64,000 nucleotides of DNA, taken from positions 186,001 to 250,000 of the forward strand of contig JAPFFF010000072.1 in assembly GCA_039105265.1 (NCBI GenBank). The letters run 5' to 3'. The stretch is from Tritrichomonas musculus. Lineage: Eukaryota; Parabasalia; Tritrichomonadida; Tritrichomonadidae. The position numbers were made by a program, and so were the translations under genes. Below, in pieces: positions 2,683 to 59,670 of this stretch; position 1 is the first letter of the stretch, and every line of letters starts with the position of its first letter. The notes below the pieces were generated by a model, which had not been told where the DNA came from, searched no databases, and was given only the letters and a program-made list of their open reading frames with translations.

Positions 2683-3831
2683 ATGGATGTTCAACAATAT
2701 TTGGAAAGAATGAAAGTTATTCATGAACAACTTCTTAAATATATAGAAAATGATCAAAATTCTAATGAAAATTACCAAAATCTAATCAAAATATTAGATG
2801 ATCAAAAGATTCGAGAAAATAAATATGAACTCAAGTCGTTACTCAACATAATATCAAGAATTTCAAATCATCATCGTCGAATCCCTGATTTCTTTATCAA
2901 AATTGATCAACTCATTCAGCATTTCAAATCAGATATCACAAATTATTTCACGAATTACGAAATTTTCAGTATTTTTAAAGAGAACAAACGAGCCATTTTA
3001 CTATTAATTGAATCCCAATTACTTTCAATTGACAAAAGCATTGTAAACACCATCAAAAACAACAAATTTTTCAAAGTCGATTATCCACTCTATTTCTTCC
3101 CCGAAATGAAGCCTTTCCTCAGTCGCGAATTGAGCCAAGAGAAAGAAAATGAGGACCCCGATATTAAAAGGCTCCATGAATTTTCAAAAAACGTTCCAGC
3201 CGATTTTGAAGAGAAGCGAAAAATTGGCGAAAATGACAACAAACTTTGTCAATTAATACGAAGCGATTCTTTGAAAGAATTCATTGATTACATTGAAGAG
3301 AACAAGTTATTAATTCAAGCGACAACGATGGTTGAACCTTCACTTTTTGAGACGAATTTATTTTTAATCAAAAATAAAAAGATTACATTGATTGAATACG
3401 CTGCATTTTACGGTTCTATTCAAATTTTCAAAATGCTCTCTGAAAACAAAAAATTGAGACAAAAAGTGATGTTCTCAGCAATTCATAGCGAAAATATGGA
3501 ATTAATCCAATTGATTGAAGATAAAAATGCCGATAAAGAAATTATGAAAAAAGTGCTCAAAGAGACAATTAAATGCCATCACAATAATTTGACCAATTAT
3601 TTTATCGAGAACTTTTTCAAAGATGATGCTGATATTTCGGCGGTTATTTCAATGCTTGCTCTCAAATATTATAACTTCGCTTTCTTGAAAAATGAAATCG
3701 TTAACGAATCAATTTTTTACGACTTGTGCTGCAATGATTATTACCCGATTGTTGAATTTATCCTCAAAAATGGAAATGTCGATATTAACAAAATAGTAAT
3801 TCAAAAAGTGGCACTTTTTTATTCAATTTGA
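2683..3831 (+). CDS. DUF3447 ankyrin-family protein, first coding block of an interrupted gene
   Basis: The start is the ATG at 2683 (MDVQQYLERMK); the open frame further upstream lacks an ATG. The protein has the layout of trichomonad DUF3447 proteins: a helical N-terminal part (IFSIFKENKRAILLLIESQ), a linker with FEEKRKIGEND, then the DUF3447 core (LCQLIRSDSLKEFIDYI, a TLIEYAAFYGSIQIF block, AIHSENMELIQLI and KCHHNNLTNYF). It ends with an ankyrin-like helix pair and VDIN at about 3789. After that the frame passes into spacer-type DNA and stops within 14 codons. Family members normally continue with ankyrin repeats, and such repeats follow here as separate 84-bp modules. The role is unknown; ankyrin proteins usually bind other proteins. 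It is either exon 1 of a gene with unconventional introns or a broken gene. Confidence 0.75.
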   Translation: MDVQQYLERMKVIHEQLLKYIENDQNSNENYQNLIKILDDQKIRENKYELKSLLNIISRISNHHRRIPDFFIKIDQLIQHFKSDITNYFTNYEIFSIFKENKRAILLLIESQLLSIDKSIVNTIKNNKFFKVDYPLYFFPEMKPFLSRELSQEKENEDPDIKRLHEFSKNVPADFEEKRKIGENDNKLCQLIRSDSLKEFIDYIEENKLLIQATTMVEPSLFETNLFLIKNKKITLIEYAAFYGSIQIFKMLSENKKLRQKVMFSAIHSENMELIQLIEDKNADKEIMKKVLKETIKCHHNNLTNYFIENFFKDDADISAVISMLALKYYNFAFLKNEIVNESIFYDLCCNDYYPIVEFILKNGNVDINKIVIQKVALFYSI

Positions 3832-4214
3832 ATCAAATTTTTTTTAATGGAATTCAAAATTATTTTTATTTACAGAATTTTAAATCAAATGCTTTTTTAT
3901 CACATTTTTAAAATCATTTTTGTTAATAAAATTCCTTAGAATTTTTTTATGGAATTTTTAAAAACGGTTTGTTTAATTTAATTTCTAATAAAATCTTGTT
4001 TGAATGATATTTCAAAACAGGCATTAATAGAATTTCATTTTTTACGTTTTAAATGAAATTTTTCATTATTTAGTTTTTATCATGTTTTTATTCATCCATT
4101 TTTTATGCAATTCTTATTTTCAATTGTCAAAATGACGTTTAAAATTCAATGTTTTAAATACAATTTCCAACAATTTATATAAATCAAATTTAAAAACTTA
4201 TTACTTCTTATAAT

Positions 4215-4298
4215 ACAGCAATACAAGCTGCCATTGAAAATGGAAATATTGAAATTGTTCAGCTTTTGTTACAACATGATAATCTTGATATTAATCTT
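4215..4298 (+). other. Ankyrin module 1 (28 codons)
   Basis: Reads TAIQAAIENGNIEIVQLLLQ and ends HDNLDINL. It has the helix-turn-helix core of an ankyrin repeat. No stop, no indel. Confidence 0.75.
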
Positions 4299-4641
4299 GT
4301 CTCAATTTTGAAGCAAATTATTCTAATAAAATTTCAAGACTTTGTTTTTTTTGAATGTAATTTTCAGTTTTAGATTTCAATTTGATTCCAAATTAAATCA
4401 TTTAAATATAATTCCAATTTCAAAATTTAAATCATGTTTCAAATCATTTTTATCAATTCAATTTCAAATACAAAAAATTAATACAATTTTATCATTCAAA
4501 ATTTGAATGACATTTCAAATTTATGATTTAAATGAAATTAAAAAAATTAGTAATTTTAATGGAGTTTCAACTTATTTATTTTAATGAAATTAATATTTTG
4601 TTATTTGAATGAAATTTTTAATGAAAAAATTAAATGAAAAA

Positions 4642-4725
4642 ACAGCTTTGCATTTGGCAGTTGAAGATGGAAACATTGAAATTGTGAAGCTTTTATTGCA
4701 ACGCGATGATATCGATATTAATCTT
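4642..4725 (+). other. Ankyrin module 2 (28 codons)
   Basis: Reads TALHLAVEDGNIEIVKLLLQ and ends RDDIDINL. It lies inside a longer chance-open frame (4609-4851) whose flanks are spacer sequence. Confidence 0.78.
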
Positions 4726-5314
4726 CCAGCCATTTTTAAAAAACTTTTAAATAAAATTCCAAAATTGTATTTTAATGCTATTTTAATTCGTGAATTTTTG
4801 AATAAAATTCATAATCAAATCATTCAATCTAATTTCAAATCAGTTTTTTAATACAATTTCACATCATTTTTTTAATTCAATTTTAAATCATTTTTTTAAA
4901 CACAATTTCAAATATATATTTTAATACAATTTCATTTTGATTTTAATGAAGTTAAAAATCCAATATAATTTATAAAATTTTAAAAGTTGTTTTTTTCATA
5001 GCATTCTAACTTTATTCATTTTGATGAAATTTGAAAACAATTTTTTTTTTCATCTCGTTTTCATTCAAATTTTTCAATGGAATTCAATTTTTTTGAATTT
5101 AATTTCATTTTAAAATTAAGCATTTTAATATAATTCTAAATTCAACTTTTTTAATGGAATTTAAATATTTGTTTTTACTAATGAAATTTAAAATCTTTTT
5201 TTTTCTTTAATGGAGTTAAGAATCAAATATTTTAATAATGTTTATCATTAATATTTTCCATACAATTTTATATTCAATTAATTCAATGAAATTATCATTT
5301 TATAATTTCATAGG

Positions 5315-5398
5315 ACTGCTCTATATATTGCAGTTGAAACAGGAAATGTTGAAATTGCTCAACTTTTAGTGTCAAAAGAAAATCTTGATGTCAACTTT
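5315..5398 (+). other. Ankyrin module 3 (28 codons)
   Basis: Reads TALYIAVETGNVEIAQLLVS and ends KENLDVNF. The preceding spacer ends TTTCATAG. Confidence 0.75.
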
Positions 5399-5813
5399 CT
5401 GAACATTCCAACAATTTTACGATTTTATAAAATTTTATTTGGTTTTAAATTCAATTTCAAATCTCACTTTTCAATAAAATTTCATTGAAATTTTTTTATT
5501 CAGTTTAAAAGGCTAATATTTATTAATAACGTTTTATAATCAAAAATTTGAATTCAATTTCAAATCAAATATTTTTTATCAAATTTTATTTCAATTTTTT
5601 TTATGATATTTAAAAATCATTCATTTTCATAAAATTTTAAAATCAATATTTTTTTGATGAAATTACTTTTTTTATATATTTATTCTATTTTATCTAGATT
5701 TTTAATGAAATTTCAAATCAATTTTTCTCTAATGAAATTTTAATTTTCAATATTTTGAATACAATTTCATTGCCAATTATTTCAATGAAGTTTGAATTTT
5801 TATTTTGAATAAG

Positions 5814-5897
5814 ACAGCATTGCATGCAGCAGTTGAAAATGGAGATATAGAAATGGTCCAACTTTTATTAGCAAATAAATCCGTTGATGTCAATCTT
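5814..5897 (+). other. Ankyrin module 4 (28 codons)
   Basis: Reads TALHAAVENGDIEMVQLLLA and ends NKSVDVNL. It is preceded by GAATAAG, which would code NK, the usual residues before TALH. Confidence 0.76.
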
Positions 5898-6479
5898 CTT
5901 AACATTTCCTTTTTATATCATTTTATAAAATTTCAAAAAATCAATATTTTGAATAACGTTTAAAACTATTATTTAAATATAGTTTACAATTCAATATTTC
6001 AACTGCATTTCAGTTTATATGCTTTAATAAAATTTCAAGGAATTTTCGTTTATTCAATTTCAAATCAACAAATTTAAATACAATTTCAAAATAAATCCTT
6101 TTTAATACAATTTCTTTCTAATTTAATGATATTTTAAATAATTTTTTAAATTCAATTTTAAATGAAACAATTTTTAATGGAATTTCAACTTATTGTTTTA
6201 AATCTCATTTCAAGTCGAATTTTTAAATCTAATTCAAAATTCAATTATTCAATGGAATTTCAAATAATTAGTTTTGATTTCATTACAAATTTAATACTTA
6301 AATGTAATTTCAAATTAATTATTTCAATGGCATTTTAAATCATTTTGTTTTTAATGAAATTCAAAAGCAAATGAAATTTATGGAATTTGACATCTGTTTT
6401 TTTCATGAAATTTTATATACCATTTTTAATACAATTTCTTATTTTATAGTTTAATGAAGTTTTATTATTATTTCATAGT

Positions 6480-6563
6480 TCAGCCTTGCATATTGCTGTT
6501 GAAAATGGACAAACTGAAATTGTCAAACTTTTACTAGAGCGTGATGATCTTGACATCAATCTT
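6480..6563 (+). other. Ankyrin module 5 (28 codons)
   Basis: Reads SALHIAVENGQTEIVKLLLE and ends RDDLDINL. The preceding spacer ends TTTCATAG, as for module 3. Confidence 0.75.
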
Positions 6564-7000
6564 CTTAGTAAAATTTCAAATTATTATGTTCAATTCAATT
6601 TCATATCAAAAAATTGAATAAAATTTCTTATTTGAAGTTTTAATTCAATTTGAAGTGATATTTATTTAATACAATTTCAAATTTATTTTTAAATATGATT
6701 TCATATATGCTTTTCCAATGAAATTCCATCTTAAATTTTTCAATACAATTCTCAATTTTTGATTTGAATGAAATTTTATTTCAATTATTTCAATGTAATT
6801 TTAAAATCAATCAATTAAATAAAATTTAAATCAAAATGATTAATCTAATTTTAAAAAAAATATTTTTCGTTTATGACATTTTAATTATATAATTTAAATA
6901 CAATTTCTTTTCAAAAATATTTAAATACTATTTCAATTGAAATATTTAAATAACATTTCAAAATAATTATTTCAATGAAGTTTTGATATAATTTCAAAAT

Positions 7001-7084
7001 TCAGCATTGCATCTTGCAGTTGAAAATGGAAATATTGAAATTGTTAAACTTCTTTTGGCAAACAAAAAGACTGATGTCAACCTT
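7001..7084 (+). other. Ankyrin module 6 (28 codons)
   Basis: Reads SALHLAVENGNIEIVKLLLA and ends NKKTDVNL, close to the family consensus. It is preceded by the conserved phrase CAATGAAGTTTTGATATAAT. Confidence 0.77.
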
Positions 7085-7457
7085 CTAAACAAAATTTAAA
7101 AAAATATTTTTTTCATACAGTTTTCATTTTTTTTTCTAATAAGATTTCAAATTTAATAATTCAATCAAATTAAAAAGAATCATTTTTATCAAATTACATA
7201 TTATTTGCATTCATTATATTTCAACATGAATGTTTGAATGGAATTCAATATTATATTTCAATGAAGTTTCTTTTTTAAAATTTTAATGAAATTTTTTCAT
7301 AAATTAATATTGTTACAACAATACAATTTTAATGGAATTCATCAATCAACTATTAATTTCGTTTTAAATTAGAGTTTTTAATGAAGTTTTTGATCTTAAT
7401 GATTTCAATGAAGTTTCATTTAATCAATTGAATGAAATTTTGTGATATTTTCAAAAT

Positions 7458-7541
7458 GCTCCATTGCACATGGCTGTTGAAAAAGGAAATATCGAAATGG
7501 TTCAACTATTGTTTTCAAGAACTGATCTTGATATTAATTTG
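7458..7541 (+). other. Ankyrin module 7 (28 codons)
   Basis: Reads APLHMAVEKGNIEMVQLLFS and ends RTDLDINL. Confidence 0.74.
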
Positions 7542-7809
7542 AAAAATATTTTTAAATATTCTTTTTTAATAGAATTTCAAACAAACCTCTTTTTTTAATA
7601 TAATTTTCGATCATTTGTTTTCGCATCTAGTTTTAAATTATCTGTTATAATACAATTTGACATGAAATATTTTTTAATGGAGTTAATACTTAACCTTTAT
7701 AATGAAATTTTAACAAATATACATTTTTTTAATGACATTTCAAATAAAAAATTCAACGAAATTACAAAAGAAAAAAATTTTAATAAAATTTTATTGGAAT
7801 TTTAATAAA

Positions 7810-7893
7810 TCAGCATTATATATCGCAGTTGAAAAAGGAAACATAAATATGGTCAAAACTTTGCTATCAAATAAAAACATTGAAGTTAATCTT
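7810..7893 (+). other. Ankyrin module 8 (28 codons)
   Basis: Reads SALYIAVEKGNINMVKTLLS and ends NKNIEVNL. It lies within a chance-open frame, 7732-7923. Confidence 0.74.
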
Positions 7894-8141
7894 CTGATTA
7901 GGATTTCAAATTTTCTATTTTAATTCAATTTTAATTCAAAAATTCTGATCACATTCAAAAACTATTTTTTTTTAATTCAATTTCAAACTAAAAATTTCAA
8001 ATGCAATTTCAAGTTTTATCTTTAAATGAAATTCACTTTTGATTATTTTCATGGAATTTTAAAAGAAAAGTTTTTTTTATGATGTTTTTTGAAATAAATT
8101 TTTTTGAACAAAGTTTTTTTCTTAAAAAAATTAATAAGACA

Positions 8142-8225
8142 ACAGCTTTGCATCTTGCTGTCAAAAATGACAATTTTGATATCGTTCGGCTTTTGGTAGA
8201 GGCAAAAGGAATAAATACTAACGTA
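8142..8225 (+). other. Ankyrin module 9, most diverged (28 codons)
   Basis: Reads TALHLAVKNDNFDIVRLLVE and ends AKGINTNV. It is the last module of the array. No further coding block follows before the next gene, so no C-terminal end of the protein is visible. Confidence 0.72.
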
Positions 8226-8505
8226 AAAGATGATGTTTTTTCTATATTTTTTTTCTTATAAAATTTCAATATAACTGCCCTAACGGTTTTTCTTATTTAC
8301 TTATGCAAAAAGCCTATAGATTACACAACAAAAGCCAAAATTAAGCTATTATTCAGAAAATTTAAATAAACATTAAAATTCATTTTACTTTATACATTAT
8401 TTATTTCTTTTAAATGGAAAGATGAGTAATAATAATAATTTATCACAATTTTTTTAATAAAAACTTTAAAAATTCATCATATAATTGATTTTAAGAAGCT
8501 GTTTA

Positions 8506-13339: not shown

Positions 13340-13411
13340 TGGATGATAGGGGAGTTGAACCCCTGGCCTCCACTATGCTAAAGTGGCGCTCTACCACTGA
13401 GCTAATCACCC
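13340..13411 (-). tRNA. trnA-AGC: tRNA-Ala (AGC)
   Basis: The minus strand folds into a 72-nt cloverleaf. The acceptor GGGTGAT pairs with ATCATCC and includes a G3:U70 wobble, the identity element of tRNA-Ala. The D arm is GCTCAGTGGTAGAGC, the anticodon stem is CCACT/AGTGG with loop TTAGCAT (anticodon AGC), and the T arm has loop TTCAACT. The discriminator base is A. No intron and no encoded CCA. Confidence 0.95.
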
Positions 13412-26853: not shown

Positions 26854-27342
26854 AAAATATGGCCTGCATAAATCTTTGAAAAGATAATCAATTATTATAT
26901 CTGAGGTTCAAATCCTTAATTAAAAAAAAATATTTTTTTAGATAATTTACAGGTCCCGACATCCAAAATGAGATTTGATGACATCCAAAATGAGATTCTC
27001 TCAATTATTTCAATGCATTCAATTTTTTTATTTTCTATTTTTTCCAATCAAAAAGTTTAGTTATAAATTTTTGATATATTGGAATAAATATTAACAAGCA
27101 TTTGAATTTCTTTAATATCGCTGATCACATTTTGCATATTCATAAATGTGAAAAAAAGTTAATTGAAAAATTCAAATTCATTGAAAAAATTGAGAGAGAT
27201 CTCATTTTGCTTGTCATCAAATCTCATTTTGGATGTCGAGACCTGTAAATTATCTAAAAGAATATTTTTTTTATTAAGGATTTAAACATCAGATATAATA
27301 ATTGATTATCTTTTCAAAGATTTATGCAGCCCATATTTTTGC
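26854..27342. mobile_element. 489-bp foldback element with ~170-bp inverted arms
   Basis: The left arm (26854-about 27025) and right arm (about 27165-27342) are inverted copies about 93% identical by eye, around a loop of about 140 bp. Each arm carries a partial internal duplication of GACATCCAAAATGAGAT. The right arm ends exactly where homology to a DUF3447 gene begins, so the element appears inserted into, or at the breakpoint of, that gene. A separate short hairpin (CAGGCCATAT and ATATGGCCTG, 26840-26866) overlaps the left end. No coding content. Confidence 0.8.
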
Positions 27343-27905
27343 AATTTTTCAAAGACGACATCAAGACATTCTTTTCAAAATCAGCGATATTCAATATTTT
27401 TAAGAGCAACAAAAGGATTTTTTTATTCCTCATTGAGCAACAAATAATAGTTATTGATGAATATATAGCTAAAAAAATTATGAAGACTGATAATTACAAA
27501 ACTTACCAATATCCACAGTATTTCCAACTAGAAATTCAACCATTCATCAATGAGAAATGGTTCCCAAAGTATGATTCGAAAGATTGTGACATAAAGAAAA
27601 ATGGATGGGTTGAAGAGATAAATGAAAAATTGCCAGAAAATTTTAATAGAAAAAGAAATGAAGGGGAAAATTACAGTCAAATCTGTGAATTGATTCGGAA
27701 GGACATGATTACAGAATTTGTTGCATATGTTACTCGAAATAGTGTTTCACTTAATGCAAAAATTCAACCATCAATATATGAAACAAATTCATTTTTACTT
27801 AAAAAGTCAAAAAGATCAAATCAAAATAACCAATAAGATTGTCGACTGACATTGATTGAATATTCAGTATTTTTTGGCTCATTTCAAATATTTTTGAAAT
27901 ATTTT
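27341..27905 (+). pseudogene. DUF3447 gene fragment, 5' truncated and frameshifted
   Basis: Begins at the edge of the foldback element with FFKDDIKTFF, IFNIFKSNKRIFLFLIEQQ and later ENYSQICELIRKDMITEFVAYV and SIYETNSFLLKK, all matching the DUF3447 proteins at 2683 and 59670. After LLKK (about 27810) the frame shifts and resumes as LTLIEYSVFFGSFQIFLKYF up to about 27900, then passes into spacer-type AT repeats. The Met at 27324 lies in the foldback arm and is not a native start. The upstream part of the gene is missing. Confidence 0.8.
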
Positions 27906-28529
27906 TTAAAATGGAATTCAAAAGCATATCTTTCAATGAAGTTCAAAATCATAACTTTCAATACCATTCAAAATCATATTTTTCAATGACATTCAATATC
28001 AGATTCATCAATGACATTCAAAAACATATTTTTAAATAGAATTCAAAAGAATGTTTTTCAATTCAATCATATATTTCAATGAAATTTTGATATAATAATA
28101 TATAAGATAGCATTATATTTGGCAATTGAAAAGGAATGCATTGAAATTATCCAACTTTTATTATCGAATGATAAACTTGATATCAAAATTCTTAATATTT
28201 TCTTTAATATTTACAAAATTTGAAATATTATCTTTCAATATCATTCAAACACATGTCATTCAATGAAATTTCAAATCATATCTTTCAATATAATTTAAAA
28301 TTGTATAATTCAATGAAATTTTAAATTATATCATTTAATGATATTCAAAATCCTATCATTCAACGTAATTTAATATATTATATTTCAGTAGAATTCAAAG
28401 TTATATCTTTCGATGTAATTCAGAATCATATTTTTCAATACCATTCAAAATCATAAATATCAATGAAATTTTGATATAATATATATTTATAAGACAGCAT
28501 TATATCTGGCAGTTGAAAAAGATAGTATA
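27906..28529 (+). repeat. Second spacer/ankyrin-module stretch
   Basis: AATGAAATTCAAAATCAT-type degenerate minisatellite, as in 3.8-8.3 kb. It holds an 84-bp module (28107-28190) and the start of another at 28496. Both modules are preceded by TCAATGAAATTTTGATATAA. The similarity to the first array shows that the arrangement is a family feature. Confidence 0.7.
28107..28190 (+). other. Isolated ankyrin module, second locus (28 codons)
   Basis: Reads IALYLAIEKECIEIIQLLLS and ends NDKLDIKI. Exactly 84 bp, no stop, the same phase and boundaries as the nine modules at 4.2-8.2 kb. Confidence 0.72.
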
Positions 28530-41692: not shown

Positions 41693-44080
41693 ATGGGAAA
41701 CGAACAAGGCAGTCCTTATTTGCAACAAAAGCAACAACAACAATCGTCCAAGCCAGGTTCATCTCCATATGATTTTGAATCATTAATTGTAATTCGAGGT
41801 GAAAGGCGAACAGGCAAATCAACATTATTAACTCGAATGAAAGGCCAAAACTTCAATCCAAATTATACCCCGACCCCTGGTTTAGAAGTCTATCAATTTC
41901 CATGGAAACTTAATTCTAGTCATTGCAATAATGTAATGATTTCAATTTGGGATGTTGTAGAACATTCTATACCACAACAATCTACTACAGAAACCAATCC
42001 AACGAATTCAGCTCCTCTTCCCGATGCCCAAACAATTGACACATTAAAGCGTGCAAACGGTCTTGTTATTATGATTGATCCGCGAAGTCCGTCTTCAATT
42101 TCGCTTGCAGAGCAGCTTATTTGTGAAGCACCAGAAGAGTGTCAAATTGTTGTATTTTCCAATTTTTATGGCGAAGAGAATGTCAAAGGAATCATTCCAA
42201 TGAAACTTCGTTCTCATATCGGCCGTTTTTCTTTCATTCCAGGAAATTTGAGAACAAATCTCGGTTTGAAGCAGTTGGCAAAGTGGCTTCAGCTTCCCTT
42301 GCTCGCTGCCAAAAGGAAAATGTTTGCCGATTTGTTTAGAGCAGCAGACAATGACTTGCACTCGCTTGAAGATGAGTTTTACGATGATGCAAAAGGTTAC
42401 TTGTCGGTCCAATCAGCAGCGCAAAAGATAGAAGCATCGTCTCCGAAGATGCAAAGTTATTCGTATCTCGATCAGCAGAATCAATCAAATATTTCGAATT
42501 CGAATTCGAACTCAAGTGTGAATTATTCTGAGCCTTCAAAATTGGAAAGACCTTCTGTTTTTGCTGAGCCAATTAAACCCAAAAAGAGGAAGAAAATGCC
42601 GTTCTTCAACAACACTGGGACATCTTACAATGAGGACCAGAATCAAGGCAATGATGATGATGATGATGGATTTTGGAGTGATGACGATGGAAATGGCATT
42701 GACGACCTCAATAATTATGATGAAGTTCCTTCAAGGAAAACAAACGAATTGAGGCCGAATCCAATGGTGCAGGCGCCTCCTCCAAAGAAGACAATGAAGC
42801 AGATCATTGAAGAGAACACAATTAGAGTTGATCATCATGAAGACGTGAACGATGCCCATCCAACAAACAAGAAAAGGAAGAAGAAAGTTCATCACGATCA
42901 GAAAGTGCAACAGAACAATCAAGAACAAGTTGAAAACGACAACTTCTTTTCTGATTCTGGCGATGAGAACAAGGCAAATGAAGTGCCTGAAAGTAATGCC
43001 GCAAATCACGAAGAAAGCACAAAGGCACCTCAGGCAAAATCCAAGACAGTGTTCACAACGACGCTTGTTCTTGAAGAAGAGGACGAGGAAGATGAACTTG
43101 AGAAGCCAAGCATTGTGAATAGCCACATCGTTCAGGCAAGCCAACAAGAGATCGTTGATGCACAGAGAAACGCTGAAATCAGCGCCAAAGAGCAGTCTAA
43201 TGAAGATGGAGCTGATGAGGAAGGTTTCTGGTCTGACAACGAAGATGAAAACAATTCGCAAGAACAGCAAGAAAGTATAAATGTTAACGATGACGATGAC
43301 GAAATAAAGCCGAATCCACTCGTGCAAAACATCAAGCCAAGAGAGAACAACTACCAAAATGTCGTCCCTCATGCACAAGAGAAGCCAGAAACTCAAGAGA
43401 AAGTAAAAAACGACATCAATGATGGTGATGAAGAAGAAGAAGCCGAGATTCAACCAAATCAACAAGAAGAACTGAAACCGAATCCACTTGTTCAGCCAGT
43501 CAAAAAGCGAACAAATCCATACCAGAACATCACACCAATCCAAACACAGCAACAAAAGCCGATAGAGCAAGAGAAGCCATTGGAACAGCAGACTGAAAAA
43601 AGTGCCACAAATGCTCCTTCAACAAACGACGATGACGACTTCTGGAATTTCGAGCAGCCCGCTGTGAGTCAGCAAGTCATCGCCGCTGCCATCCAGCACA
43701 AGAAAAAGAAGGTGAAGAAGGCTGCTGCTGCTGCTGCTCCAGAACAAGCCAAGCCAAAAGAGAGGCCGCTTGTCATCCCAAAGTCGCAGGTTGCCCAGCG
43801 GACGATCACAGTCGGCACGAGCAAGCTCTCTTACCAGCAGCAGCAGCTTCAGCAGCAACAACAACAGCAAATTCCTGTCATTCCCACAACAGACCTCTTC
43901 TCTGACTTAAACGAGCCTGGAAGTGACTTCTTCCCTTCACAGAAGCCGGCTTCTTCGAAAGCACAAATGAGTCAAACTACTCAAAAAGTTGATTCTGCAT
44001 CAACAACAAAAACGGTTAGAAAAAGAAAAAGAGTGGTGAAAAGTGGTGCTGGATCGACATCTGGATATGATGCTGTTTAA
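41693..44080 (+). CDS. RABL6: RABL6/Parf-like GTPase with acidic repeat tail
   Basis: 795 residues. Residues 30-210 form a Rab-like GTPase domain: P-loop GERRTGKS (36-43), YTPTPGLEV (switch region), ISIWDVVEH (WDxx in place of WDTAGQ, as in RABL6), VIMIDPRSPSS, VVFSNFYGEEN (an N-x2-G in place of NKxD), then a helix and LAAKRKMFADLFRAA. The WDVV motif and the conserved segment after the domain are characteristic of RABL6/Parf. Residues 240-795 are low complexity. Acidic-aromatic motifs recur (GFWSDDD, NFFSDSG, GFWSDNE, DFWNFE), PNP[ML]VQ occurs three times, and there are polyQ and KKRKK basic stretches. The N-terminus MGNEQG could be myristoylated (weak). The gene is visibly more GC-rich than its neighbours. 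Stop TAA in TAAA. Confidence 0.8.
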   Translation: MGNEQGSPYLQQKQQQQSSKPGSSPYDFESLIVIRGERRTGKSTLLTRMKGQNFNPNYTPTPGLEVYQFPWKLNSSHCNNVMISIWDVVEHSIPQQSTTETNPTNSAPLPDAQTIDTLKRANGLVIMIDPRSPSSISLAEQLICEAPEECQIVVFSNFYGEENVKGIIPMKLRSHIGRFSFIPGNLRTNLGLKQLAKWLQLPLLAAKRKMFADLFRAADNDLHSLEDEFYDDAKGYLSVQSAAQKIEASSPKMQSYSYLDQQNQSNISNSNSNSSVNYSEPSKLERPSVFAEPIKPKKRKKMPFFNNTGTSYNEDQNQGNDDDDDGFWSDDDGNGIDDLNNYDEVPSRKTNELRPNPMVQAPPPKKTMKQIIEENTIRVDHHEDVNDAHPTNKKRKKKVHHDQKVQQNNQEQVENDNFFSDSGDENKANEVPESNAANHEESTKAPQAKSKTVFTTTLVLEEEDEEDELEKPSIVNSHIVQASQQEIVDAQRNAEISAKEQSNEDGADEEGFWSDNEDENNSQEQQESINVNDDDDEIKPNPLVQNIKPRENNYQNVVPHAQEKPETQEKVKNDINDGDEEEEAEIQPNQQEELKPNPLVQPVKKRTNPYQNITPIQTQQQKPIEQEKPLEQQTEKSATNAPSTNDDDDFWNFEQPAVSQQVIAAAIQHKKKKVKKAAAAAAPEQAKPKERPLVIPKSQVAQRTITVGTSKLSYQQQQLQQQQQQQIPVIPTTDLFSDLNEPGSDFFPSQKPASSKAQMSQTTQKVDSASTTKTVRKRKRVVKSGAGSTSGYDAV

Positions 44081-49145: not shown

Positions 49146-49219
49146 TGCCTCCGACGGGACTCGAACCCGCGACACTCGGATTAAAAGTCCGATGCTCTAG
49201 CCGACTGAGCTACGAAGGC
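49146..49219 (-). tRNA. trnK-TTT: tRNA-Lys (TTT)
   Basis: The minus strand folds into a cloverleaf of 74 nt. The acceptor GCCTTCG pairs with CGGAGGC (one G-U). The D arm is GCTCAGTCGGCTAGAGC, the anticodon stem TCGGA/TCCGA with loop CTTTTAA (anticodon TTT), and the T arm has GGGTTCGAGTCCC. A T8 run directly downstream on the minus strand serves as Pol III terminator. No intron. Confidence 0.95.
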
Positions 49220-56280: not shown

Positions 56281-59200
56281 TTAATCAGTGAAATTGAGTT
56301 CACAACTTCCATATACCCTAATTACCCAATGAATTTGGCTTCTCTTTAATGTTATTTTCCGAAGTGAATAACAAATAATGAATGCATTAGGATGAATCCT
56401 TCTTACAGAAGGAGGAATAGTAATTTCAATTAAATTTCCGCATCGAGCAAAAGCTTCACTCCTAATTGCGAGTAAAGAAGAAGGCAGTGTTATATGAATT
56501 AATGATTGCAAATCATAAAATGCATGATGATCTATTATAGTAATAGAAGAAGGCAATTGAACTTTATATAAATTACAGCATTGACTGAAAGTAAAAGGAT
56601 TAATCGCTGTTACTAATGGAGGAATAATAATATCATGCAAAGATATGCAAGATTGAAATGCCGATTGACCGATATATTTCACACTTTCTGGAAGAGAAAT
56701 TGATCCAAGATCACAACAATTGTAAAAAGCATATTGTTCAATACATTCAACTGTAGAAGGAAGAATTATTTCTCTTAAATGGATGCAATCAGAAAAAGTA
56801 TATCTAGAAATAACTTTCAAAGGAGCAAGAATTTCAACTTTAATAAGATATGAGCATTCGGCAAAAGCAAAAGAACCTAATTCAGTTACAGAAGGTGGAA
56901 TTGTAATTTCGGTAATTGATGATTCGAGAAAAGCAAATGAATCAATGAATGTTACTGTTGGAGGAATTATTAATTTAGTTAATTGATTAAATTTTGAAAA
57001 TAGGCCTTTTTCAATTGTTTTTAATTTTGATGGAATATTCACATCATTAATTGAACTATTTCTGAAAGCATAAGGACCAATTTTAGTAACTGTTTCAGGT
57101 ATATTTATGCTATAAATAGAAGAGCAACCATCAAAAACATATGATTCAATTTCCGTCACTGATGAAGGAATATCTATTTTGTTTAATGATTTACAATAAC
57201 AGAATAATCCAGAAGGAATTGTCCTTATTGATGTTGGAAGAATGACTTCTTTAAGTGATGAGCAAGATTTGAATGCTTTTTGTCCAATTTCTACGATTGA
57301 TGAAGGTATTTCAATCTTAGTTAATGCTTTGCAATAACTAAATACAAATTTTCCAATTTTTGTCACCAATGAAGGAATTGTTATCTGAGCCAAACTACGA
57401 CATCCACAGAAAGTACCATCTTCAATTTCATTTATTGATGAAGGAATTGTTATTTCAGTCAATTTACAACAATTTTTGAATGCAAATTTGCCAATCTTTG
57501 TCACTGAGGATGGAATTGTTATCTGAGTCAAACTACGACATCCACAGAAAGTACCATCTTCAATTTCATTTATTGATGAAGGAATTGTTATTTCAGTCAA
57601 TTTACAACAATTTTTGAATGCAAATTTGCAAATTTTTGTCACAGATGAAGGAATTGTTAGCTGAGTTATTTTGGTGCAATCTGAAAATGAACCATTTCCA
57701 ATTGTTGTTACTGAGGAAGGAATTTCTATCTTGCAAAGTGACCGACAATTTTTAAAAACATTTAACTCAATAGATGTTATAGATGAAGGAATCGTGAATT
57801 CAACAAGAGAGGAGCATCCTTCAAATGATCCTTCACTAATACAAACAATTGAAGAAGGAATTGTAATATTTTTAAGTGACTTGCAAGAGCGAAATGTATT
57901 TCTTTCAATTGTTGTTATTGAAGAAGGAACTTCCATTTTAGTTAATGATTTGCATTTCACAAAAGCATTCATCCCAATTCTTTTCAATGAAGAAGGAAGT
58001 GAAATATCTTTGAGTTTTTTGCATCTTAAAAATGCGAAATCATCAATTTCAACTAATGATGAAGGAAGCTCAATTTCAGTTAATGAAGTGCATAATTTGA
58101 ATGCTCCTTTACCAATTTTTGTCACTGATGAAGGAATGATCATTTTAACAAGTGATTCACATTGACAGAATGTAAATTCATCAATAAATGTTAATAAAGG
58201 AGGAATTATCAATTCTTTCAATCTAGTGCATCCAATAAATGCAGCCTTTCCAATCATTGTCACTGAAGAAGCAATTGTAATTTGTTCAATTGATGAAGCA
58301 TCTTCAAAAGCATAATTATTGATTCGTGTAACTGAAGAAGGGATGATTACATGTTTAATTGTTTGACATTTATAAAATATACGATTAACTTCTCCTTCAT
58401 TTACAATTTCAAGAGTTTGGCAACCTTCGAAAGCACGTGGACCGATATATTTAACGGAGGAAGGAATCGTTATTTCCCTTAAATTTTCGCATCCTTCAAA
58501 AGCAGATGAATCAATATATGTAACAGATGGAGAAATGACAACTTTCCTTAATTTTTTGCAATTTTTAAACATGTTCTTTCCAATTTTGGTCACTGATAAA
58601 GGTATATTTACCTCAGTCAGGAAGCTGGCGAAAGAGAATAAATTTTCTTCTTTCGAAATTGAAAAGAAATCGTCTAAGTCATCAAAATAAAAATAATAAT
58701 TATGATACTTGCTTGCATATGACATAAGACTCGTGGAATTATCATCAAAGAAATTAGTGAATAAATAATCAGCAATATTGTTATGATAACATTTAACTGA
58801 TTCTTCCAGAACTTTTTCAATGGCATTCAATCTCTCTTTAGGATTCATTTCTTCTGTGTAGAATTCCACGTTGTTGTTTTCTAAAATGTGGATTATCATC
58901 GCATTGTTAGAGTGAATGGCATAAAGCCATAGTGATGGTGTCAGGGGAACATCATTTCGTTGCAAGTATTGAAAAATTTTCAATGAACCAAAAAAAGTGG
59001 CATATTCAATTAATGTCGGAGTTTTGTTAATCAAAAATTGGTTTGTTTCAAAAAATGATGGATTAATAACCTTGGTTAATGGCATGTTAGACATGGTGAC
59101 ATGTGATATGAAATCTTCGATTAAATCTAAACGGATTAGTCTACAGATATATGAATCGTTTTCCCCTGATAGGAGTTTGTCTTCAAAATTGGTTAAAATA

Positions 59201-59670
59201 TTCGGATCTTGCTTTAAAAGTATGTTTTCTATTTTTTTCTTCTTCCTTCTGCCAAGAAGCTCTTTGATCTCTGGATATAAAATTTGGCAATATCGTCGTT
59301 TATATGGATCGCTTTTTTTAAGGATTTGAGTGAAATAAGACTTCTCTGGAATTAATATTTTTTCTCGAAAAAGAAAAAGAAGAATTTGAGGGCTGTATGA
59401 AAAATTATTAAATATTTCTTCATTCGAAAAATTGGATTTAATTGTTCCAATGAAATATTTAATGATTTCAAAAATTTTGTTGAAAAAATTTGGGTATCTA
59501 TGATGATTTTCAACAATTTTTGATATTATAAAGAAAAGTTCTAATAAATCATCATGATCAGTTAAACTAGGCTGAAACTCGAAATGATTATCAGAAGACT
59601 GATTGTCAATATAGTCTAAAAGAATTTCTTGTAGTTTCTTTTTTGGTTTGATATATTTTTCAATTTCCAT
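56281..59670 (-). CDS. DUF3447 N-terminal domain fused to ~33 BspA-type LRRs
   Basis: 1129 residues, MEIEKYIKPKKKLQEILLDY onward. Residues 1-345 are a full DUF3447 region (NEEIFNNFSYSPQILLFLFR, ENDSYICRLIRLDLIEDFIS, TLIEYATFFGSLKIFQYLQR, LEESVKCYHNNIADYLFTNF). From about 370 to the end there are about 33 leucine-rich repeats of 23 residues with consensus IPSSVTxIGxxAFxxCxxLxx. It is the intact counterpart of the broken gene at 35.65 kb and shows the full domain order. Two LRRs are duplicated in tandem (138 bp, 57381-57656). No signal peptide or membrane helix. TAA overlaps TAAATAAA. Probably a scaffold; localisation unknown. Confidence 0.88.
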   Translation of the reverse strand: MEIEKYIKPKKKLQEILLDYIDNQSSDNHFEFQPSLTDHDDLLELFFIISKIVENHHRYPNFFNKIFEIIKYFIGTIKSNFSNEEIFNNFSYSPQILLFLFREKILIPEKSYFTQILKKSDPYKRRYCQILYPEIKELLGRRKKKKIENILLKQDPNILTNFEDKLLSGENDSYICRLIRLDLIEDFISHVTMSNMPLTKVINPSFFETNQFLINKTPTLIEYATFFGSLKIFQYLQRNDVPLTPSLWLYAIHSNNAMIIHILENNNVEFYTEEMNPKERLNAIEKVLEESVKCYHNNIADYLFTNFFDDNSTSLMSYASKYHNYYFYFDDLDDFFSISKEENLFSFASFLTEVNIPLSVTKIGKNMFKNCKKLRKVVISPSVTYIDSSAFEGCENLREITIPSSVKYIGPRAFEGCQTLEIVNEGEVNRIFYKCQTIKHVIIPSSVTRINNYAFEDASSIEQITIASSVTMIGKAAFIGCTRLKELIIPPLLTFIDEFTFCQCESLVKMIIPSSVTKIGKGAFKLCTSLTEIELPSSLVEIDDFAFLRCKKLKDISLPSSLKRIGMNAFVKCKSLTKMEVPSSITTIERNTFRSCKSLKNITIPSSIVCISEGSFEGCSSLVEFTIPSSITSIELNVFKNCRSLCKIEIPSSVTTIGNGSFSDCTKITQLTIPSSVTKICKFAFKNCCKLTEITIPSSINEIEDGTFCGCRSLTQITIPSSVTKIGKFAFKNCCKLTEITIPSSINEIEDGTFCGCRSLAQITIPSLVTKIGKFVFSYCKALTKIEIPSSIVEIGQKAFKSCSSLKEVILPTSIRTIPSGLFCYCKSLNKIDIPSSVTEIESYVFDGCSSIYSINIPETVTKIGPYAFRNSSINDVNIPSKLKTIEKGLFSKFNQLTKLIIPPTVTFIDSFAFLESSITEITIPPSVTELGSFAFAECSYLIKVEILAPLKVISRYTFSDCIHLREIILPSTVECIEQYAFYNCCDLGSISLPESVKYIGQSAFQSCISLHDIIIPPLVTAINPFTFSQCCNLYKVQLPSSITIIDHHAFYDLQSLIHITLPSSLLAIRSEAFARCGNLIEITIPPSVRRIHPNAFIICYSLRKITLKRSQIHWVIRVYGSCELNFTD
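57381..57656 (-). repeat. 138-bp tandem duplication of two LRR units
   Basis: The segment from TTATCTGAG at 57381 recurs at 57519 with only scattered changes (LAQITIPSLVTKIGK versus LTQITIPSSVTKIGK). 138 bp is exactly two 23-codon repeats, so the frame is kept. A recent unequal exchange. Confidence 0.9.

Follow-up and report, generated by a model that had tools for sequence, protein, structure and literature searches.

Sequence evidence for Tritrichomonas musculus ankyrin genes with loops apparently written as single codons between ~22-nt AT-AT elements

The DNA analysed here, referred to as the window, is a stretch of 64,000 nucleotides on contig JAPFFF010000072.1 of the Tritrichomonas musculus assembly (193.4 Mb, 746 contigs). 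Judged from its sequence, the plus strand from 2683 to 8369 is very likely one protein-coding gene with loops that are written codon by codon; it belongs to an ankyrin family with relatives that carry the label DUF3447. The gene starts with an open frame, exon 1 (2683-3798), of 370 codons ending in DINK, followed by the two codons IV ahead of the first repeated element; the frame has 747 database relatives, and its end is set by the parse of the spacer behind it. Nine ankyrin modules follow on the same strand, placed with a module profile at 4212-4298, 4639-4725, 5312-5398, 5811-5897, 6477-6563, 6998-7084, 7455-7541 and 7807-7893, and, together with the codons KDD (module profile and parse), at 8139-8234. 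The first-pass annotation had described nine intact modules in a single orientation, and we find the same, all nine being free of stops and indels in the 87-nt windows (29 codons) used here. Eight spacers of 245-586 bp lie between the modules; with the one of 419 bp that follows exon 1 they total 3,650 bp, in agreement with the more than 3.6 kb given before. A DUF3447 block ahead of the modules was not recovered: exon 1 matches no Pfam family at E<=0.001, the DUF3447 (PF11929) match is confined to the ankyrin region, and the name is taken from the database labels of the exon-1 relatives. Among 120 listed relatives of exon 1, 114 carry in their last 60 residues the boundary D-x-N-x, one to three residues, then I or V (shuffled tails: mean 48, maximum 58), which is where the first element would begin.

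The spacers had been taken for non-coding DNA, a view that did not hold, as they are built from periodic ~25-bp units that appear to carry codons. Each unit consists of a 22-nt element (A/GTT...AAT) and one variable trinucleotide. In young loci spacer lengths lie near multiples of 25, and the units are near-identical when lined up 25 per row. The 22-mer sequence differs from locus to locus; the position of the variable triplet is constant. Within the unit, mean diversity is 0.47-0.64 at the three variable bases compared to 0.01-0.38 elsewhere in the 18 loci, of 19, that have at least four units, with a search pattern that itself fixes five of the 22 element bases. Diverged loci show little contrast, for instance 0.64 versus 0.37 in the window. 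The elements share the consensus RTTYAAA...TTTNAAT, are mostly 18-27 nt long and are poor in G (3.3% versus 19.6% in the codons; 910 of 1877 elements are free of G). Among 1027 unique parsed elements, 921 start with AT and 103 with GT, 951 end in AT, and two run from GT to AG. By consensus the element ends are complementary (ATT/AAT), and the observed pairing is about equal to permuted pairing at all eight positions (462 unique elements); the idea that the elements are recognised as hairpins was dropped for this lack of covariation. In the arrays of two related loci, L019 and L025, element diversity is 0.04 and 0.01 versus a codon diversity of 0.47 and 0.56, a pattern that could reflect strong diversifying selection on the loops, a local hotspot or a homogenisation that spares the codon.

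In the window each array holds 9-23 elements with a single codon between neighbours. The following assignments are those of the parser described below. Array 1 (3799-4211) comprises 16 elements (20-25 nt) and 15 single codons; the latter, together with the two preceding codons, give the loop IVSGRHKGLDREHADTQ. All further arrays are given including the codons that end the module before them: array 2 at 4299-4638 (13 elements, 12 single codons; loop VSKVLIHSTDEGEE), array 3 at 4726-5311 (23 elements, 22 codons; PAKAKLTSTTEKSELGFIGEGNTE), array 4 at 5399-5810 (16 elements, 15 codons; LNKSKSNSQDKESEETE), array 5 at 5898-6476 (23 elements, 22 codons; LNKNICKSTTDSGLLGFVGEGETE, a protein-level homologue of array 3), array 6 at 6564-6997 (17 elements, 16 codons; LSKSKSTMETEV*LDTTNE), array 7 at 7085-7454 (15 elements, 14 codons; LNKTKQQYGEEIGFEEE), array 8 at 7542-7806 (10 elements, 9 codons; KNRILTGEDEK) and array 9 at 7894-8138 (9 elements, 8 codons; LIRSHSAEGDK). 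The lone TAA of array 6 becomes AAA when the boundary is shifted one base on, in an alternative parse that is 2.6 bits worse. A last element of 36 nt (8235-8270, GTT...AAT) was placed by eye via the reading frame of the cap and was not found by the parser. It is followed by a C-terminal ankyrin cap exon, ITALTVFLIYLCKKPIDYTTKAKIKLLFRKFK, with its stop codon (8271-8369), assigned from the joined reading frame. The predicted gene thereby has 143 elements, 133 single-codon exons and ~820 residues, and exon 1, modules and cap share one joined frame that contains one stop. With X at that stop, the decoded module-loop region matches Ank_2 with E=1.2e-79 in seven stretches. The array 3 codons LGFIGEGNTE, if joined, predict the 30-mer CTCGGATTCATAGGAGAAGGAAATACAGAA, followed by AGGACTGC.

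That the triplets behave as codons is seen in their avoidance of stops. The triplet register contains one stop in 977 units compared to 74.3 expected from its base frequencies, and one in 560 unique units compared to 44.5, with an expectation that is rough, as it assumes independent bases and other registers deviate from it up to three- to fivefold in either direction. This register also has the highest entropy (4.40 bits), and no other register is both stop-free and of comparable entropy. Genome-wide, one exact 22-mer placed between AATNNN and NNNATT occurs in 5,661 copies (none for the reversed control), and those of its copies that were inspected, among 100 places listed, stand in tandem in ankyrin loci. 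Where AAT and a triplet directly precede this 22-mer, the triplet is TAC or TAT in 249 cases and TAA, TAG or TGA in none. Interpretations of the spacers as single introns and, later, as minisatellites gave way to the codon reading on the basis of diversity and register counts. The variable triplet as a mutation hotspot, a target-site duplication or a hairpin loop was dropped since the triplets are nearly stop-free; a hotspot may still add variability.

The parser is a model of element ends and lengths in which all 64 triplets are weighted equally, so that it is blind to stops. It was trained on 187 spacers, 128 from family 1 (19 loci) and 59 from a second ankyrin family, family 2 (7 loci), excluding locus L009 and locus L017, which is a near-identical copy of L016. 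It returned 1877 elements, 1313 of them exactly 22 nt long, separated by 1690 inter-element runs, of which 1682 are a single codon, and three of 1712 parsed codons are stops. Dinucleotide-shuffled controls gave 239/2858, 261/2885 and 228/2778 stops, the reverse complement 84/1834 and the reversed sequence 459/2657. Moving the register one base earlier produces stops in 822 of the 1682 single codons, and one base later in 129. A model trained without the window reads the same nine window loops, that of array 1 included, with one stop in 133 codons. The longest runs of three-nt exons count 22 in the window gene and 33 in L013.

Similar module loci, for which the first-pass annotation had suggested a genome search, are numerous: DNA similar to the window gave 71 matches, which group into ~36 loci. 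Many of these loci contain several modules at intervals of a few hundred bp, and 20 of them were fetched and analysed. On these 20 loci and the first 12 kb of the window, the module profile found 169 modules in the real sequences and none in the reversed ones. The profile is ungapped and a module with an indel would therefore escape detection; a half-module scan for frameshift remains gave three. Stops occur in 2 of 168 isolated modules, both in L009. A selection check had likewise been proposed, and the simple ratio of nonsynonymous to synonymous differences between modules (pN/pS) is 0.49 for the window and 0.24-0.83 among the individual loci, these being raw proportions between paralogues in which part of the divergence may predate the interruption. 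Broken copies exist, as expected in a large family: L009, with stops in modules and parsed spacers, one module with a stop in the L035 array, and a remnant in the window at 27860-28480 on the plus strand, a rearranged piece of a second gene of the same kind with an array of 25-bp units on either side of a single module (28104-28190). By eye, the remnant as a whole (27324-28520) also includes an exon-1 fragment with an in-frame stop and seems joined to the beginning of another exon 1; ten scored triplets of this remnant contain no stop.

The decoded loops resemble protein. Uninterrupted paralogues code comparable loops continuously at the same place (LYKSHLGSCIEDDQ, PLKSSNESESD, YCKSFEKKNNEIE), which often share the x-x-K start and the acidic end, and loops read by skipping the elements are polar, as they are in these paralogues. 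The uninterrupted set comprises 17 sequences, four genome loci and 13 database proteins (five named T. musculus), and genome matches to uninterrupted genes sit in open frames of ~190 to 1,900 codons. Loop composition correlates with that of the uninterrupted set with r=0.91 for seven diverged loci and 0.88 for all of family 1, compared to 0.30 for a three-frame translation of the spacers of the seven loci and 0.44 for modules. Loops 3 and 5 of the window are identical in 11 of 17 aligned residues over STT....LGF[IV]GEG.TE, and none of 20000 shuffles was as good. The elements of arrays 3 and 5 are no more alike at matching positions (identity 0.69, 14 pairs) than in other pairs (0.69, 506 pairs). 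Thus, in this one pair of loops on which protein-level conservation was tested, codons have been conserved while the intervening DNA diverged down to the common consensus. One open relative, P0128, was considered as a spliced product and rejected, because it has its own uninterrupted genomic gene at 95% identity; the other open relatives lay outside this check.

A second ankyrin family shows the same principle in shorter form. Family 2 loci (e.g., C4:7205139, C20, C15, C43) combine 87-bp modules with 99-102 bp spacers and gave at least 174 matches from 40 of 331 candidates; 55 unique units from seven loci (L035, L038, L041-L045) were compared. The consensus spacer consists of four elements (22, 22, 22 and 20 nt) around three codons, of which the first is K, N, D, R or E in 50/55 units, the second is variable and the third is G in 42/55. 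Skipping the elements restores Q-D-x-x-G-x-T-A-L, the ankyrin beta-turn. The spacer length differs from 101 in 19/55 units, and module indels number zero in a profile that could not detect any. Frameshifting through the spacer was rejected: in many units the next module has a frame that stays open well upstream of it, but in 13/55 this frame has stops, and spacer length varies between 99 and 102 bp. At the ligand-contact codons 1, 6, 9, 10 and 24, which were picked after the data had been seen, pN/pS is 1.82 versus 0.24 at the other 24 framework codons. With codons 1, 9 and 10, which we take to be the variable positions of the designed-ankyrin consensus, it is 1.89 versus 0.38 for the other 26. 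Module and spacer were copied together in this family, hence this protein selection acted while the modules were already interrupted. Hypervariable contact codons on a conserved framework are as in a diversifying recognition family.

The elements fit no known intron type in any defining feature tested. Only two of the 1027 unique elements start with GT and end with AG, as U2-type introns do, and 35 end in AC, as expected for AT-AC introns of the U12 type; the elements start with the consensus RTTYAAA, and the U12-type 5' consensus is ATATCCTTT. The Trichomonas vaginalis 3' intron motif ACTAACACACAG has six exact copies in the genome versus 29 of its reversed control, and the full pattern with GTATGT 8-38 nt upstream has none; as the motif is rarer than its control, ordinary T. 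musculus introns probably use other signals. A search with the Rfam U1 model gave no match in this genome and likewise none in the control genomes. In Stentor coeruleus introns are 15-16 nt long, and we know of no single-codon exon arrays there. Exceptionally small nuclear introns, called spliceosomal in Stentor (PMC9505925), would be common to both organisms. Type B introns of T. vaginalis are ultrashort spliceosomal introns of 23-25 nt that are bounded by GT and AG and have their branch site merged into the 3' motif (PMC12316389). They come from the same phylum and are of a similar length order, whereas the elements described here have AT..AT ends and exceed 140 in one gene. Noncanonical introns of euglenids and diplonemids also lack GT-AG, and the mechanism of their removal is not known (PMC4770533, PMC12621601); there the borders are variable and the ends base-paired, whereas here the ends are uniform and end covariation was not found. 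Introners of Amoebophrya carry inverted repeats of 8-20 nt and direct repeats of 3-5 nt, and the overall density there is ~1.4-1.5 introns per kb of coding sequence (PMC7789003). Both would be repeated noncanonical introns, but here they stand in tandem in the loops of ankyrin genes, one per codon; one 22-mer has 5,661 genomic copies, and in the window and 29 loci no single copies were found in other genes. T. musculus lives as a commensal in the mouse gut; 2,500 of its genes are reported to contain introns, an RNA-seq dataset exists (PRJNA841657), and the available part of the paper contains no splice-motif analysis (PMC11978803). Titles and abstract openings, a scope that leaves out most subscription journals and all preprints, contained no single-codon exon arrays and in no case both Tritrichomonas musculus and ankyrin. 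IMG/VR contigs, among which records close to this genome may be absent, gave no match to the array pattern.

At the level of sequence we can show that the triplets read as codons, that the modules are under protein selection and that the joined reading is sensible. We consider it likely that these loci form a class of nuclear genes in which loops are runs of single-codon exons between ~22-nt AT-AT introns, with a splicing that ignores GT-AG. Each loop codon would be its own exon, with a ~22-nt element between neighbours; the elements would most likely be removed from the pre-mRNA by non-GT-AG splicing, and the codons would meet in frame. This keeps the direction of an earlier proposal, exons of one gene split by repeat-derived introns without GT-AG, and changes its unit, since a spacer is an array of 9-23 elements and not one intron. 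Arrays may have lengthened and shortened by tandem duplication of the 25-bp unit, one residue per step. Gain or loss of a unit leaves the frame unshifted and loop length would thus be free to vary. Joining any 5' end to any later 3' end likewise leaves whole codons, so that mis-pairing would shorten the loop and keep the frame, and such tolerance may let the layout persist.

Several observations weigh against this interpretation. Runs of three-nt exons are without precedent to our knowledge, and how a spliceosome would pair the correct ends seems hard to explain. The joined product was not found in three protein-database searches (length ranges 210-668, 131-418 and 229-728 aa); the predicted product of ~820 aa exceeds the searched lengths and therefore fragments alone could have appeared. 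Of 25 listed T. musculus relatives of exon 1, 23 are 356-437 aa long, about the length of exon 1 alone, in a range that leaves out models above 668 aa. Stops are present, one each in the window, L016 and L020, and the family 2 alignment has one TGA among 55 second codons (in L038), which the parser reads otherwise. The registers two bases earlier and two bases later also contain 0/1682 stops, because the fixed bases ATN and NAT exclude them; in these registers the codon would include one variable base and miss the other two. Finally, there is no evidence that T. musculus uses such elements as introns in general, because no single element joins long frames of other genes: elements linking two open frames of at least 70 codons gave three hits across the window and 29 loci, all inside the arrays of L023 and L025.

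The main rival is translational bypassing, in which the mRNA would retain the arrays and the ribosome would skip ~22 nt after each loop codon. The evidence that the triplets are codons fits bypassing equally well, and Magnusiomyces mitochondria skip blocks at 81 sites, some without matched codons (PMC5009743). Nucleotide blocks are skipped between codons in phage T4 gene 60 and in Magnusiomyces, as they would be here, but gene 60 uses matched codons (PMC5009743). Here the gene is nuclear, with a series of blocks, one for each codon, and take-off codon and last element triplet are equal in 70 of 1877 cases. Up to 23 consecutive hops per loop would be needed in cytosolic translation, and the 5' and 3' element ends lack covariation; we regard bypassing as improbable. 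Marginally less probable again is an elimination at the DNA level, by which the elements would be excised from a working copy of the genome like the internal eliminated sequences of ciliates. The elements are short, AT-rich and uniform in size, and their ends are fixed at codon boundaries, all of which would suit such a process, but we know of no second genome form in parabasalids. Moreover, the assembly, made from parasites purified by fluorescence-activated cell sorting and sequenced with PacBio and Nanopore (PMC11978803), contains the arrays.

Plain decay, or a silent cassette store, would make modules and arrays relics or donors that are not expressed as one protein. The broken copies (L009, the L035 stop module and the rearranged remnant at 27860-28480) fit this view, but stops are avoided in the triplets of 18 loci and genome-wide, and loops are conserved as protein though their elements resemble each other no more than those of other pairs do. 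In addition, a single joined frame, with one stop, runs through exon 1, modules and cap. The first-pass annotation had judged ordinary decay inadequate, which stop avoidance and protein-level loop conservation bear out for the intact loci; its cassette store finds no support, as the arrays join N-terminal exon, modules and cap in one frame and the triplets avoid stops. Decay and store together thus appear very unlikely. A classical GT-AG intron over each whole spacer, with codon-like triplets arising by accident from the repeat structure, has in its favour the introns reported in 2,500 T. musculus genes (PMC11978803), but is next to negligible, given that the 5' module edges of 20 loci and the window, as far as they were listed, share no common GT, that stops are avoided in the single variable register and that the homology of loops 3 and 5 would be left unexplained.

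If single-codon exons between AT-AT introns are indeed spliced, they would represent the densest interruption of coding sequence known to us, with an intron for each codon along stretches that reach 22 codons in the window gene. The introns would be near the smallest known and lack GT-AG, and would challenge models of splice-site pairing. The interrupted layout is probably widespread in relatives, and gene finders would, as the data suggest, cut a large gene family of T. musculus short at exon 1. Loop length would evolve residue by residue without frameshift, a frame-proof diversification of a large family of binding proteins.

Beside the interrupted ankyrin locus L019, three copies 124 bp apart (L019:7476-7811) are unlike their AT-rich surroundings and gave weak profile hits. 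Elsewhere in the window, the open frame at 2-1681, truncated by the window start, encodes a PARP catalytic domain (PF00644, E=5e-7), and two tRNA genes lie on the minus strand at 13340-13411 and 49146-49219. The G+C content is 41-46% in 42001-44000 versus 17-36% in all remaining 1-kb windows; most of this richer stretch falls in an open frame of 795 codons (41693-44080). A 138-bp tandem repeat with 92% matches (57341-57666) lies within a long minus-strand open frame at 56281-59670.

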